Positions 29,933 to 34,087 of a stretch of 38,112 bases of DNA are shown here, piece after piece. Below the pieces are notes generated by a model. That model did no database searches, was not told where the DNA came from, and saw only the letters and a program-made list of their open reading frames with translations. Source of the stretch: a virus. Both the position numbers and the translations under genes were made by a program. Where the stretch lies: the IMG/VR virus record IMGVR_UViG_3300023443_000373, positions 1-38,112 of that record. One strand, given 5' to 3'. Each line of letters starts with the position of its first letter. Position 1 is the stretch's first letter.

Positions 29933-31009
29933 TTAATTTGGCTTCAATGGGATCACTTTTGCCGTCTCGATCACTTCATAAGTACGGCGTATTTTTCTAC
30001 AAATACCCTCCCCCACTAACTCCAATAAAATCCTCGATAACTCTGGATGACGGCGCTTTGTTTCAGCCATTAAGACAGTAATTTTTAAAGTATTACCATA
30101 GAAACCAGACGCAATTTTTTGTTTAATTACACTCAATTCTTCACTGATATTGCAAGTTGCAATTGCTAGTGCAACTTCGGTATGTTTCACAGGTTTTGCA
30201 ACTTGCAACTTTTGTGCAACTTCTGCAACTTGCAGTGGTGCAACTTTTTCTTGCAAACTTGCAACCCGCGTATTCTCTGGCTTGCAAGGTGCAATAACTT
30301 TTTCTTGCAATGTTGCATTGTCAAGTTGCAAGGTCGGTGCAATAACTGCAATTTTATGTTTCACGGTTATTGCAAGGATGCAAATTACGCCGCAAATATC
30401 AACCAACATTGCACCGAAAAGAAATAGCAATAACTGTGCAAGTTGCGCAGTAATACCCAACATTTCGCCAACAGTTTTGAAGATAGAATCTTCTCTAGAT
30501 TCTTGCACACCCTTAAGGGTGTTTAACTTTTCAAGTGCTGCCGCTTTCTCTACTCGAAGCGCCTTCAAACGAGTACTGATTGAATAACCCCTAGTTTTAT
30601 ATTTACCTTTCAAATCGTTTGCTTGGGATTCAATAAGTGTGGCTGATTCACTATCTAGTTTGTGTATGATATTTTGCTGTTCATGATACACAAATGATGA
30701 AGTACTAATTATTTCTAAATTACTCGTTGCGCCTGATTCAAGAAAAACCACCGTAATGAACACCGAAAAAGCGAGCAAAACAACGGCTATCATATAAAGA
30801 AAAAACGACCATATTCTAGATACTGTCTTTTTTGCCAGCGCAAAGAATGCGAATTTACACACCTCAAGACCGGTGGCAAATACACCCGCCATGACCATTT
30901 TTTCTATATTAGGCTGTCTTGTCACCCAAAAGGCCACTGAAGCCACCAAAGAGAAAGAGCAAAGCAGAACGGCCCCAATCACAAGGCCGCTTTGTAATAT
31001 CTTAGTCAT
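29933..31009 (-). CDS. Membrane-anchored protein with coiled coil and winged-helix-like tail
   Basis: The 358-residue protein has likely membrane helices at about 6-29, 37-58, 66-90 and 184-215, with a long charged coiled coil between the third and fourth (100-180). A low-complexity linker (about 217-287, VA, LQ and AT units) leads to a C-terminal block (288-350) that reads like a winged helix: SVIKQKIASGFYGN, ITVLMAETKRRHPELSRILLELVGEGICRKI. An even number of spans puts both ends in the cytoplasm, so it could hold DNA at the membrane. The linker is encoded by the TGCAA-rich array. GAGGTGGG precedes the ATG. It is the last gene of the RecT operon. I recognise no named family. Confidence 0.7.
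   Translation of the reverse strand: MTKILQSGLVIGAVLLCSFSLVASVAFWVTRQPNIEKMVMAGVFATGLEVCKFAFFALAKKTVSRIWSFFLYMIAVVLLAFSVFITVVFLESGATSNLEIISTSSFVYHEQQNIIHKLDSESATLIESQANDLKGKYKTRGYSISTRLKALRVEKAAALEKLNTLKGVQESREDSIFKTVGEMLGITAQLAQLLLFLFGAMLVDICGVICILAITVKHKIAVIAPTLQLDNATLQEKVIAPCKPENTRVASLQEKVAPLQVAEVAQKLQVAKPVKHTEVALAIATCNISEELSVIKQKIASGFYGNTLKITVLMAETKRRHPELSRILLELVGEGICRKIRRTYEVIETAKVIPLKPN
30151..30441. repeat. TTGCAA/TGCAA array within the membrane-protein gene
   Basis: I count 19 copies of TGCAA on the plus strand in this stretch, where well under one is expected, plus many on the other strand as part of the palindrome TTGCAA. Several are spaced 7 or 8 bases apart (30151/30158, 30197/30204, 30252/30260, 30283/30290, 30371/30379), giving units such as TTGCAAGTTGCAA. 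The word falls in all three frames of the host gene (LQ, VA/IA, TCN), so peptide repetition does not explain it. It is the second DNA-word array in the window and differs from the ATCGAT array. A protein-binding array is likely; its ligand is unknown. Confidence 0.75.
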
Positions 31010-31067: not shown

Positions 31068-31991
31068 TTATGTTGTTTTTAGTGCCGCCTTTTTATTGTT
31101 GTAAACGTGTCGCAACGAATCAGCAAAGCGAGTGCCACCGAAAGGTAAAATATGATCCATTAATTTTTGTAACGAATTGAAGCTTCGACAACGATTAATT
31201 CTACCAATTAGGGCGCTGGCTGCCTGTTGATTTAATCCTGACGGTATGCCCTCAGCAACAATTTCAGCTTTGACAACATTTTCTTCCTCAATGACAACTT
31301 CAGCTTCTTTGATTTCTTCAACCTCTTCGATTTCTTCAGTCACTAACGTCGATTGAGGCAATATTTTTGTTTTAAGAGAATCGACGCGGCTTAGTGGCGC
31401 GCTTTGTGGTAGTTCTTGCGGTGCCTCGTTTATCTGTTTTATCACTGGCAATGAGAAGTCTTGCGCCTCTTCTGCGATAGACAAGCCCTTTAGCGCATCA
31501 GGAAACAAATCACGCAAACAAAACGCCCTAGCGCGCATTTTAAGCATTCGCTGAGGGTATTGCGTCCATGGACCTTTTTTAACCCATAATCCCGCAAGGA
31601 TCGCGTCCTGTTTGTCAAAAGTCTCTATATTTACCTCGTCGTCATCCTTTCGCTTTGCGGTACAAGTCGCCGTCATGGTTTTTTCGTCAAAAGTCTCTCT
31701 AATATATTCACATTTTGGGTGATTTCTACAGATTGCGATAAAAGCATCCCCCCAAACCGACGGACGCCCATTAATCACAGAGATATTTTGCAATGATTGC
31801 ATTGGTTTTAAGCCTATTTCTAGACCCATTTGGATCGCAATTAGGACATTTCCAGGCTTATTCTGATAATCTTTAGGCACCATATCGCTACCCGAAAGGA
31901 CTTGAGCTGATCGCCAGTTAGTATCTAAATCGTTATCACCGGAAAAATTAAACAAGTCTCTGCTTTGTTGGTTAACTAGTTGCTGTTGCAT
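31068..31991 (-). CDS. recT: RecT-family single-strand annealing protein
   Basis: The 307-residue protein shows the RecT core: SDMVPKDYQNKPGNVLIAIQ, then GLKPMQSLQNISVINGRPSV and WGDAFIAICRNHP, TATCTAKRKDDDE, and the FDKQDAILAGLW...WTQYPQRMLKMRARAFCLRDLFPD block (about 35-170), followed by GLSIAEEAQD. Such proteins anneal complementary strands during phage recombination. A Glu-rich linker (about 219-245) joins the core to a C-terminal basic domain (about 255-307), longer than in E. coli RecT. It overlaps the exonuclease gene by 20 bases, forming the classical exonuclease-annealase pair. Confidence 0.9.
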   Translation of the reverse strand: MQQQLVNQQSRDLFNFSGDNDLDTNWRSAQVLSGSDMVPKDYQNKPGNVLIAIQMGLEIGLKPMQSLQNISVINGRPSVWGDAFIAICRNHPKCEYIRETFDEKTMTATCTAKRKDDDEVNIETFDKQDAILAGLWVKKGPWTQYPQRMLKMRARAFCLRDLFPDALKGLSIAEEAQDFSLPVIKQINEAPQELPQSAPLSRVDSLKTKILPQSTLVTEEIEEVEEIKEAEVVIEEENVVKAEIVAEGIPSGLNQQAASALIGRINRCRSFNSLQKLMDHILPFGGTRFADSLRHVYNNKKAALKTT

Positions 31992-33195
31992 TTTGCACCT
32001 CTCTTTTTAGTAATTGCCATTTCACCGAAAGCGAACGTTTAGGATCACTCTCTTTAATCGTATCATTGGCGGCATCAGGCCAGTTTTTACGTAATTTTTT
32101 CATGTCGACTGACTTTCTAGGCGTAGGCGTTGAAAATCCAGCCATGGCCTTTCCTTCATCGTTAATCAATAAGTCTTTATTTTCGCCAATGACTTTGCCG
32201 ATCTCAATTTTGATTTCTTCTTGACGGTCTCCTATCGTTTTTCCCTGCTGTCTAAGCCTTTCATGCTCTAGGCAAAGTTCTTTCGTCGCGTCATCAGCGA
32301 CTATTGATTGACCGTTATTAGTCGGATATTTAGAGATTAAATCTTCCATAGTGGTGATTTCTGGCTCAACTTCGAGTTGTACATTGTTATACCAAAAATC
32401 ATAGGTTTTAAGGATGATTGCTTGCGCCAATTCTTCATCTAATTCAAATTTATAATGACGGAACTCTCTTGTATCAGTAAAAATAACGGCTAAATAGCCA
32501 GTACGAACACCGAAAACGATCATATAAAAATAAAGCTGGAATAAATGCATTTCTGGCACGTGATCGGTTCCTGTTTCGCCCCATTCATCTTTTTGAAACA
32601 TATAGCTTGCCATTTTACATTCTAAAACCGCCTTTTGACCCACAACAAAACGATCAATATTTGCTAACATCCATTCGTATTGGCTATGTTGATAAATGGC
32701 GTGACGGTTATGAACTTTAAAACCTGTTTCTTGCGTAAACCACTGAGCAATAATGTCTTCCATATCACGCCCCAAACGCATATGGTTGTTATCTTCTGTT
32801 TCAGGAAGAAGCCCCAACTTATCCTGATAACATTGATATTCAGTTCGATACTTATTCATACCAAAAATAGCTGAAACGTCCGTACCGGTTACGCCTCCCC
32901 TTCTCCACTTAAGCCATACTTCTTTAAGCATATCCTTGGTATCAACTAGACGCTTCGGCGCTAGCTCAACAAAGGGAAAATTCTTGTCTTCATCAATTAC
33001 CTGGATTAAATCGTCGTTAGATGCAATCAATAATTCATCAGCACCATAAGAAGGATCTTGATGATAAACAGGAATAGTATAAAATGAATGATCGCCCCGC
33101 TCCGACGGTTCAACTTTAGTAATGCGACCTTCGAAAAAATAATCATTCGTGCTTTCTGTATCGGGATATCGTAATTTTTGACCTACTTTTAACAT
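31972..33195 (-). CDS. YqaJ-type phage exonuclease
   Basis: I start this at ATG 33195, seven bases after GGAGG; the frame is open upstream to a TTG. The 407-residue product has an extra N-terminal domain of about 85 residues (LRYPDTESTNDYFFEGRITK), perhaps SH3-like, then the YqaJ core: WRRGGVTGTDVSAIFGMNKY, GRDMEDIIAQWF, ANIDRFVVGQKAVLECKMA with the catalytic Asp-Glu-x-Lys signature, and QLYFYMIVFGV. It would resect double-strand ends and feed single strands to the RecT partner. A C-terminal region (about 300-407) with charged helices extends beyond the core. Confidence 0.9.
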   Translation of the reverse strand: MLKVGQKLRYPDTESTNDYFFEGRITKVEPSERGDHSFYTIPVYHQDPSYGADELLIASNDDLIQVIDEDKNFPFVELAPKRLVDTKDMLKEVWLKWRRGGVTGTDVSAIFGMNKYRTEYQCYQDKLGLLPETEDNNHMRLGRDMEDIIAQWFTQETGFKVHNRHAIYQHSQYEWMLANIDRFVVGQKAVLECKMASYMFQKDEWGETGTDHVPEMHLFQLYFYMIVFGVRTGYLAVIFTDTREFRHYKFELDEELAQAIILKTYDFWYNNVQLEVEPEITTMEDLISKYPTNNGQSIVADDATKELCLEHERLRQQGKTIGDRQEEIKIEIGKVIGENKDLLINDEGKAMAGFSTPTPRKSVDMKKLRKNWPDAANDTIKESDPKRSLSVKWQLLKREVQNATATS

Positions 33196-33219
33196 ATTGG
33201 AACCTCCATAGTTCAATAT

Positions 33220-33444
33220 TTAAAGTTCTTCGTAAAGACTGCCTTTTTTTAATGATTCTTTATATTTCTCAATGCCTTGCATAACGAAAAAATTAAGCAC
33301 TGAATTTTTAGAACCACCTGTATTTTCTACAATCCATTCATAATGTTTTTTATCTAATCGAGTTGTAAGGTTCACATGGTCATTAACAAAGCCGATAATG
33401 TGTAACTTAGAAGGCTTTTTATCACCTTTTGATTTTTTTGGCAT
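33220..33444 (-). CDS. Ribbon-helix-helix regulator
   Basis: The likely start is ATG 33444 with GGGAG upstream; the longer frame lacks a site. The 74-residue protein has a Lys-rich N-terminus (MPKKSKGDKKPSK), a strand HVNLTTRLDK and two helices (KHYEWIVENTG and SKNSVLNFFVMQGIEKYKESLK), the ribbon-helix-helix layout of Arc and MetJ-type repressors. It heads the YqaJ-RecT operon. A perfect palindrome, TATCATGATA (33495-33504), lies between the -10 and -35 of the promoter for this operon, suggesting autoregulation. Confidence 0.7.
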   Translation of the reverse strand: MPKKSKGDKKPSKLHIIGFVNDHVNLTTRLDKKHYEWIVENTGGSKNSVLNFFVMQGIEKYKESLKKGSLYEEL

Positions 33445-33490
33445 AAGTATATTGCTCCCACAATTAATATGATTGCCTGAAAGAGATTCT

Positions 33491-33520
33491 ATAGTATCAT
33501 GATAAATTGTTTTAGTGCAA
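33491..33520 (-). promoter_or_regulatory. Promoter of the recombination operon with internal palindrome
   Basis: On the minus strand a -35 TTGCAC (33520-33515) is followed after 18 bases by -10 TACTAT (33496-33491), close to consensus. The 10-base palindrome TATCATGATA (33495-33504) overlaps the -10 and spacer, where a bound repressor would block polymerase. It drives the ribbon-helix-helix, exonuclease and RecT genes. The divergent plus-strand cassette starts at 33550. Confidence 0.55.
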
Positions 33521-33549
33521 CGATAAAACCAAATTAAATAGAGGTTATT

Positions 33550-33723
33550 ATGTGGTGTCACGTTAAAGACGAAAAACCAACGCCAGGAAGCGAGATAGAA
33601 ATACAATACGATAATAGGATTTTAGAATGTCACACGGCGAAAAATACAGTATATAATCGGTCAAATACATTGTGTTTAACCTATGATGAGTTTGAATTCT
33701 GGCGTGAAAAGGAAGCATCCTGA
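33550..33723 (+). CDS. Small DUF551-like protein
   Basis: From ATG 33550, with GAGGT upstream, 57 residues to TGA 33723. The N-terminus MWCHVKDEKPTPGSEIEIQY follows the pattern of small DUF551-type phage proteins (W, then V-x-D-x-x-P-x-x-G). It is cysteine-containing and ends EFWREKEAS. The VRR-NUC gene starts 40 bases before its end, so the two form a unit. Function unknown. Confidence 0.6.
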   Translation: MWCHVKDEKPTPGSEIEIQYDNRILECHTAKNTVYNRSNTLCLTYDEFEFWREKEAS

Positions 33724-34087
33724 ATCTGACATTTGTATTAAATTATGGTACTGGTTCAGTTGTAATTATCCAGAATATAAAAATCGTTACTTAAGGTTTG
33801 AGGTCGGCGGTAACCGCCCCAGGATAACGCAGCAGATACTAAAAGCCGAAGGTAATAAAGCAGGTGTCTCTGATATTTTTATCGCGCTACCGAATAAGAA
33901 CGGCGGCGGCTTATGGCTTGAAGTAAAGACAAAGACGGGAAAGCTTTCACAGAAACAAAAAGACTTTGATAAAGAGATGAGAAACGATTATACCAGTGTT
34001 GTAGCCTATGGATATAATCAGTGCAAGGATGAAATAAACCATTACATGATCGCGTGTGATGTGTCGCCTAAATTTATGGATTTATGA
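33683..34087 (+). CDS. VRR-NUC domain nuclease
   Basis: The 134-residue protein shows the VRR-NUC signature: NKAGVSDIFIALPNKNGGG, LWLEVKTKTGKLSQKQKDF (about residues 59-95), with Asp, Glu-x-Lys as metal-binding and catalytic residues, and a preceding basic segment (NRYLRFEVGGNRPRI). Stand-alone phage VRR-NUC proteins are thought to cut branched or structured DNA, and could resolve recombination or packaging intermediates made by the nearby RecT and YqaJ products. ATG 33683 lacks a clear ribosome-binding site; GTG 33704 is an alternative start. Confidence 0.85.
   Translation: MMSLNSGVKRKHPESDICIKLWYWFSCNYPEYKNRYLRFEVGGNRPRITQQILKAEGNKAGVSDIFIALPNKNGGGLWLEVKTKTGKLSQKQKDFDKEMRNDYTSVVAYGYNQCKDEINHYMIACDVSPKFMDL

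Follow-up and report, generated by a model that had tools for sequence, protein, structure and literature searches.

The gene of a 358-residue membrane protein in the phage genome IMGVR_UViG_3300023443_000373 contains an array of the DNA word TTGCAA/TGCAA that is a feature of the DNA itself, unexplained by the encoded peptide or by codon usage. Distant relatives of the gene have arrays of other words at the same position. This pattern suggests that the gene contains a docking site tying the phage genome to the membrane. The account that we favor, with somewhat less than even confidence, is that the array is read by the membrane-anchored tail of the protein encoded around it and that this reading tethers or partitions the phage DNA; the purpose, segregation or the placement of replication, is less certain than the account as a whole. 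"The window" below means the whole stretch of DNA analyzed, positions 1 to 38,112 of the IMG/VR record. The gene and its parts are laid out in the window as follows.

29933 to 31009, minus strand: gene of the 358-residue membrane protein, predicted to comprise four transmembrane (TM)-like helices, a coiled coil, a disordered linker and a C-terminal winged helix (translation, AlphaFold2 model, alignment with 23 relatives).
30150 to 30441, no strand assigned: TTGCAA/TTGCA/TGCAA array of 22 cores, 10 of them the full TTGCAA, in three frames (counts and shuffles).
30734 to 30985, minus strand: predicted TM-like helices 1 to 3, residues about 9-31, 35-61 and 65-92 (model and hydropathy).
30458 to 30721, minus strand: predicted coiled coil between TM3 and TM4, residues 97-184 (model and hydropathy; putative topology).
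30362 to 30442, minus strand: codons of the predicted TM4 helix, about residues 190-216, into which the array extends with 4 to 5 cores (model, word positions, hydropathy).
30149 to 30346, minus strand: predicted disordered linker, residues 222-287, pLDDT under 50, with 17 cores (model and word positions).
29969 to 30148, minus strand: predicted C-terminal winged helix, residues 288-347, the proposed reader of the array (AlphaFold2, IclR-type structural match, marginal FtsK gamma profile match).

An earlier note on this DNA had reported 19 TGCAA words between positions 30151 and 30441, often spaced by 7 or 8 bases. An exact recount of the plus strand agreed, the minus strand of the same stretch held 13 more, and the gaps between words were irregular and frequently 7 to 9 bases; helical phasing was looked for among the words of the window array and none was found. 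Across the whole window TGCAA occurred 135 times (128 expected), which makes the excess a local one. The cores of the array were counted on the gene strand as TGCA flanked on one or both sides by T or A, and those that are not the full palindrome TTGCAA are TTGCA or TGCAA.

The same note had held that peptide repetition could not account for words falling in all three frames. This was borne out by the core centers over the whole gene, which were distributed 14/6/3 among the frames, and by codon-matched shuffling, the check that had been named as able to refute the array. We counted TTGCA on the gene strand (19 observed) under three shuffle schemes of 5,000 shuffles each. Synonymous shuffling across the gene gave a mean of 5.8 and a maximum of 13; drawing from the phage's codon usage gave a mean of 2.5 and a maximum of 9; and re-dealing the linker's own codons, the strictest of the three controls, gave a mean of 11.8 and a maximum of 18. 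The observed count was reached in 0 of 5,000 codon-matched shuffles, and the array stands. All 15 Ala codons in the array stretch were GCA, a codon that makes up 28% of Ala codons phage-wide. When 37 genes of the window were put through a similar shuffle test, two stood out, the membrane-protein gene at 29933-31009 (z = 7.5) and the gene at 1170-2222 (ATCGA, z = 6.2). The failure of the codon shuffles, together with the standing out of two genes among 37, indicates that the array is a DNA-level feature.

The array had also been described as coinciding with the linker of the protein. This was so for 17 of the 22 cores, which lie in codons of the disordered linker, but the array proved wider, with the other 5 in the codons of TM4 and its edge. 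Since the peptide is constrained in TM4, the cores there are a further argument for selection at the DNA level. A peptide repeat or replication slippage with no function of the DNA is thus a very improbable explanation: L-Q and V-A residue pairs do supply part of the excess, but the use of three frames, the irregular spacing, the words in TM4 codons and the synonymous shuffles that never reached the count all speak against it. The array also contains two copies, 86% alike, of a 21-base repeat that starts TATGTTTCAC and finishes TTGCAA (30181-30201 and 30355-30375); TGTTTCAC is also half of the known parS consensus, possibly by chance.

The reading of the product as a membrane protein with a separate C-terminal domain was supported by an AlphaFold2 model built from 24 sequences. 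The model predicts helices at residues 2-31, 35-61 and 65-104, a long coiled coil, a further helix at 188-223, disorder at 222-287 and a winged helix at 290-346 (pLDDT mostly above 90). Hydropathy of the window protein supports four TM-like helices, with segments near residues 9-27, 38-56, 70-88 and 193-211. A cytoplasmic winged helix would place the coiled coil on the periplasmic side of the membrane. In a structure comparison, the modeled winged helix aligned with an IclR-type winged helix-turn-helix (Z = 7.8, rmsd 2.0 over 66 residues), and a fold search of the model listed many winged helices. With the C-terminal profile, the best match of solved structure was FtsK gamma, which was marginal (E = 0.032). 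Foldseek with the whole model returned no PDB match under E = 0.001; in its viral library, the best matches (E about 1e-5) were unnamed phage proteins of similar length. No family in Pfam, PHROG or NCBIfam names the protein, and family searches found no initiator, primase or helicase domain in it. Beside the gene, at 31068-34087 of the window, are genes for RecT-like, RecE-like and VRR-NUC nuclease proteins.

Close relatives of the window protein were absent from phages, IMG/VR and GTDB contigs by tblastn. A plasmid collection yielded one remote match (E = 4e-9), on a 43.5-kb circular phage-like plasmid of Microbulbifer sp. MI-G (L350). The MI-G gene spans the start of the record and was left unannotated there; it retains the membrane part and the tail, and its linker word differs (CGTTTA). 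That record (NZ_CP098024.1, 1-43523) is listed as a plasmid, has terminase, portal, capsid, tail and holin genes, and resembles the circular genome of a phage or a phage-plasmid. Searching onward from MI-G, we found ten Microbulbifer loci, then members in 21 of the 144 genomes searched from the taxonomic family and in 11 of 390 from the order, often with several prophages per genome. Microbulbifer prophages commonly carry the protein, and related genera have scattered members. In an alignment of 24 sequences (A2), relatives at 16 to 26% identity retain the membrane part and the winged helix, and the window protein has the same layout, with a membrane part and C-terminal winged helix in a single open frame aligned over its whole length.

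A general scan of IMG/VR for TGCAA arrays returned many, none of them within a relative of the window gene. Several were in-frame peptide repeats (L052, L151), and several were frame-mixed and near helicase-like or terminase genes. Frame-mixed TGCAA/GTTGCAAC arrays were seen in the unrelated IMG/VR phages L083, L145, L208, L211, L063, L113, L149, L179 and L182, several of them near helicase/primase-like or terminase genes.

We tested the linkers across the protein family with synonymous shuffles (n = 200), taking as significant a count reached in 0 of 200 at both 5 and 6 bases. Besides the window, three further lineages carried a significant linker array.

L401, L350, L409, L410 and L402: linker array of CGTTTA with AACGG (0/200 shuffles).
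L403 to L405: linker array of AACGTTCA, AACGTTTA (0/200 shuffles).
G429 member, its gene split over contigs L413 and L458: linker array of GTTTAA (0/200 shuffles).

These three lineages have the half-site TAAAC/GTTTA in common and differ in its arrangement. Their linker peptides also differ (KRFSTD.., ERSxxxSKRLA.. and KPLNPSEFKPQ..), and the regions of their recognition helices are alike (GG...KP[VI][FI]D.L); the window differs in both word and helix. The carriers of arrays do not form one group and are scattered on a tree of the membrane part, which leaves out the G429 member and on which the window branch is very long and of unsure placement. Many members whose winged helix is very similar have a short linker and lack a significant array, so a linker array does not define the family. 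Some short-linker members of one lineage, and L407, showed a small excess of words in the gene itself, which may partly reflect codons common by descent; the TAAAC word set was also chosen after the arrays were seen. Elsewhere in the loci of array-less members, we found no strong cluster of TAAAC words. In the gene tails of L423 and L425, which have short linkers, the window's word (TTGCA/TGCAA) occurred 6 times, compared with about 2 expected (P about 0.02).

In L405 the array takes the form of a 10-bp dyad, TRAACGTTYA, repeated at a constant 21 bp across 11 successive gaps, a period of two helical turns and of seven codons. In L403 to L405 the 21-bp period is also that of a 7-residue peptide repeat, a point in favor of the peptide or slippage as the source of the words, but synonymous change is depleted in them: among these loci, synonymous changes were found in 1 of 89 codon comparisons within words, compared with 13 of 71 for other linker codons and 133 of 775 for the gene outside the linker, these comparisons not being mutually independent. 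Radical peptide swaps within the words (E/K, S/L) leave the dyad core AACGTT intact. Recent duplication of 21-bp units could also homogenize the words in these loci. Across the window and these relatives, the explanation by peptide repeat or slippage is already largely refuted.

The earlier note had offered a partition-like or membrane-anchoring site and a secondary origin as possible functions. The former is still the best reading, on indirect evidence; the latter became less likely, since the window and several relatives have an origin-like array with a different word elsewhere. In the window this is an ATCGA/GATCGA/ATCGAT array at 1351-1951, with 32 ATCGA in 300 bases, beyond synonymous shuffles; it lies in the linker codons of the Lin1244-type initiator-like gene at 1170-2222 and is a probable lambda-type origin. 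In the MI-G element, the linker codons of an O-like initiator gene (HTH_36, 8356-9273 of L350) contain four repeats, each about 20 bases long (GTGAATCTCCTGCAC..). L404, L405 and L413 each have a noncoding origin-like array of a different word besides the one in the membrane-gene linker. In the window, MI-G, L404, L405 and L413, therefore, two arrays with two words coexist, one on the replication side and one in the membrane gene, and the linker array is unlikely to be the main origin.

A second origin, with iterons bound by an initiator, was accordingly judged doubtful as an account of the linker array. Lambda-type origins do sit in the middle of the initiator gene, where extra iterons add residues to O (PMC7466680). 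The TTGCAA-type arrays of other phages often adjoin replication or terminase genes, which would also suit an origin; against it are the separate arrays just described, in the window, in MI-G and in L404, L405 and L413, and the lack of an initiator or helicase domain in the membrane protein by family searches. The lambdoid origin is nevertheless the closest parallel if the protein here reads its array, both being arrays of binding sites inside the middle of a gene. The difference is that O is a soluble initiator whose array is the origin, beside an AT-rich region, whereas the window protein is membranous and the origin-like array lies elsewhere.

Mostly noncoding origin-like arrays were seen in many loci of the family (L357 6501-6951, L406 4451-4751, L407 4651-4951, L408 1101-1501, L411 4701-5001, L415 4751-5151, L416 4651-5151, L417 1851-2301, L429 5001-5501, L404 4351-4851, L405 951-1351 and L413 2001-2401). 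They span about 300 to 450 bases, with an AT-rich core, downstream of a large primase-like gene, which is the phrog_1139 primase in L404 and L413 and phrog_1139 in all five loci tested (these two, L357, L358 and L416). Their layout is constant and their words change fast (GTTAGG, TGTTCC, TGTCCC, GTTAAT, TTTTACA, GTTTACA, GTAACC, GTGCCC, GTTGCT). That the tail of the membrane protein targets these noncoding words is unlikely, as L406, L419 and L429 have nearly the same tail and different words.

We propose that the linker array is a set of cis-acting protein-binding sites kept inside the gene of a membrane-anchored DNA-binding protein. Four helices would anchor the protein in the inner membrane, with the winged-helix tail held in the cytoplasm on a flexible linker, and the tail would most likely bind the TTGCAA sites of the gene that encodes it, with many copies binding together. 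Such multicopy binding could tie the phage DNA to the membrane, either for segregation as a circular element or for placing replicating DNA. The linker can accommodate a site array in its codons, since almost any peptide sequence is tolerated there. The array at the DNA level and its recurrence at the same position with other words are observed; the fold is predicted; and we infer the tail as reader, the tethering of the genome by its binding and the purpose of the tether. This reading is favored because array and tail are in one gene, arrays recur there, and word and recognition helix are alike in the TAAAC lineages and both different in the window, although the link between word and helix is a single contrast, that of the window with the TAAAC lineages. 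For the family at large, we put forward more tentatively a one-gene tether or partition system of temperate phages, with a centromere-like array in its own linker codons and a word that changes between lineages together with the winged helix.

The array might instead be read by another protein (a host factor, a phage repressor or a packaging protein), the membrane gene being merely a convenient place for it. We regard this as unlikely: in four lineages an array sits at the corresponding place of this gene, and in the window only the initiator gene has one besides, even if the link between reader and word is not direct and many members have the same winged helix without an array. That similarity also implies that the array is not needed for a family-wide role, and the tail may have other targets. 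Quite unlikely, in our view, is a ToxR-like transmembrane regulator or a superinfection-exclusion protein, whose tail would bind its sites on resident or incoming phage DNA and set expression or block entry. Membrane location and a winged helix that is probably cytoplasmic would suit such a role, as would the excisionase-like and integrase-like genes that adjoin the membrane gene in MI-G, but the sites are many and inside the coding region, and outside the gene they were not seen to cluster.

The proposed tether resembles known systems in part. The chromosome protein RocS, whose membrane module is also found in the plasmid protein pSK1 Par, is a single protein with an N-terminal winged helix that binds DNA, a coiled coil and a C-terminal amphipathic helix that contacts the membrane (PMC11500499). 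Like pSK1 Par and RocS, the window protein would unite helix-turn-helix-type DNA binding (here predicted), a coiled coil and membrane association in a single protein without a partner ATPase; unlike them, it has the reverse order in the model, with four TM helices first and the winged helix last, and it is of another family, DUF536 not being among its Pfam matches. For p16.7, a membrane protein of phi29 DNA replication, a role in recruiting the phage DNA to the membrane has been proposed (PMC4974454). It is likewise a phage-encoded integral membrane protein, and a gp16.7-like PHROG weakly matched 14 of the 24 alignment members (best E = 0.00058; the window protein itself was unmatched), probably through the coiled coil. 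The difference is that p16.7 acts with terminal protein and single-stranded DNA. We know of no site array inside its gene. FtsK likewise has a membrane domain followed by a linker and, at the C terminus, a winged helix, and its gamma domain gave the marginal profile match above, but IclR-type winged helices also fit the model, and a RecA-type motor domain is absent from the 358 residues by Pfam and by the model. Nor is the window word TTGCAA the KOPS motif of FtsK. Searches of open-licence papers for TTGCAA iterons and for combinations of partition, phage-plasmid and winged helix gave nothing relevant, and that literature yielded no description of a site array within the gene of a membrane protein.

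Single genomes can carry several of these prophages, and in G471 (L401, L403, L405, L407) and G472 (L402, L404, L409, L410) the prophages of one genome have different linker words, as would fit the avoidance of cross-talk.

An origin inside the initiator gene is already known in phages; here, the same trick appears in the gene of a membrane protein, apart from the probable origin. The case is also a caution that low-complexity linkers can be disguised DNA sites. If the tail reads the array, the differing words would form a natural series for following how winged helix and site change together, as well as a natural test of whether coresident prophages avoid each other through different words, and the protein would represent a minimal, ATPase-free way of fixing phage DNA at the membrane.
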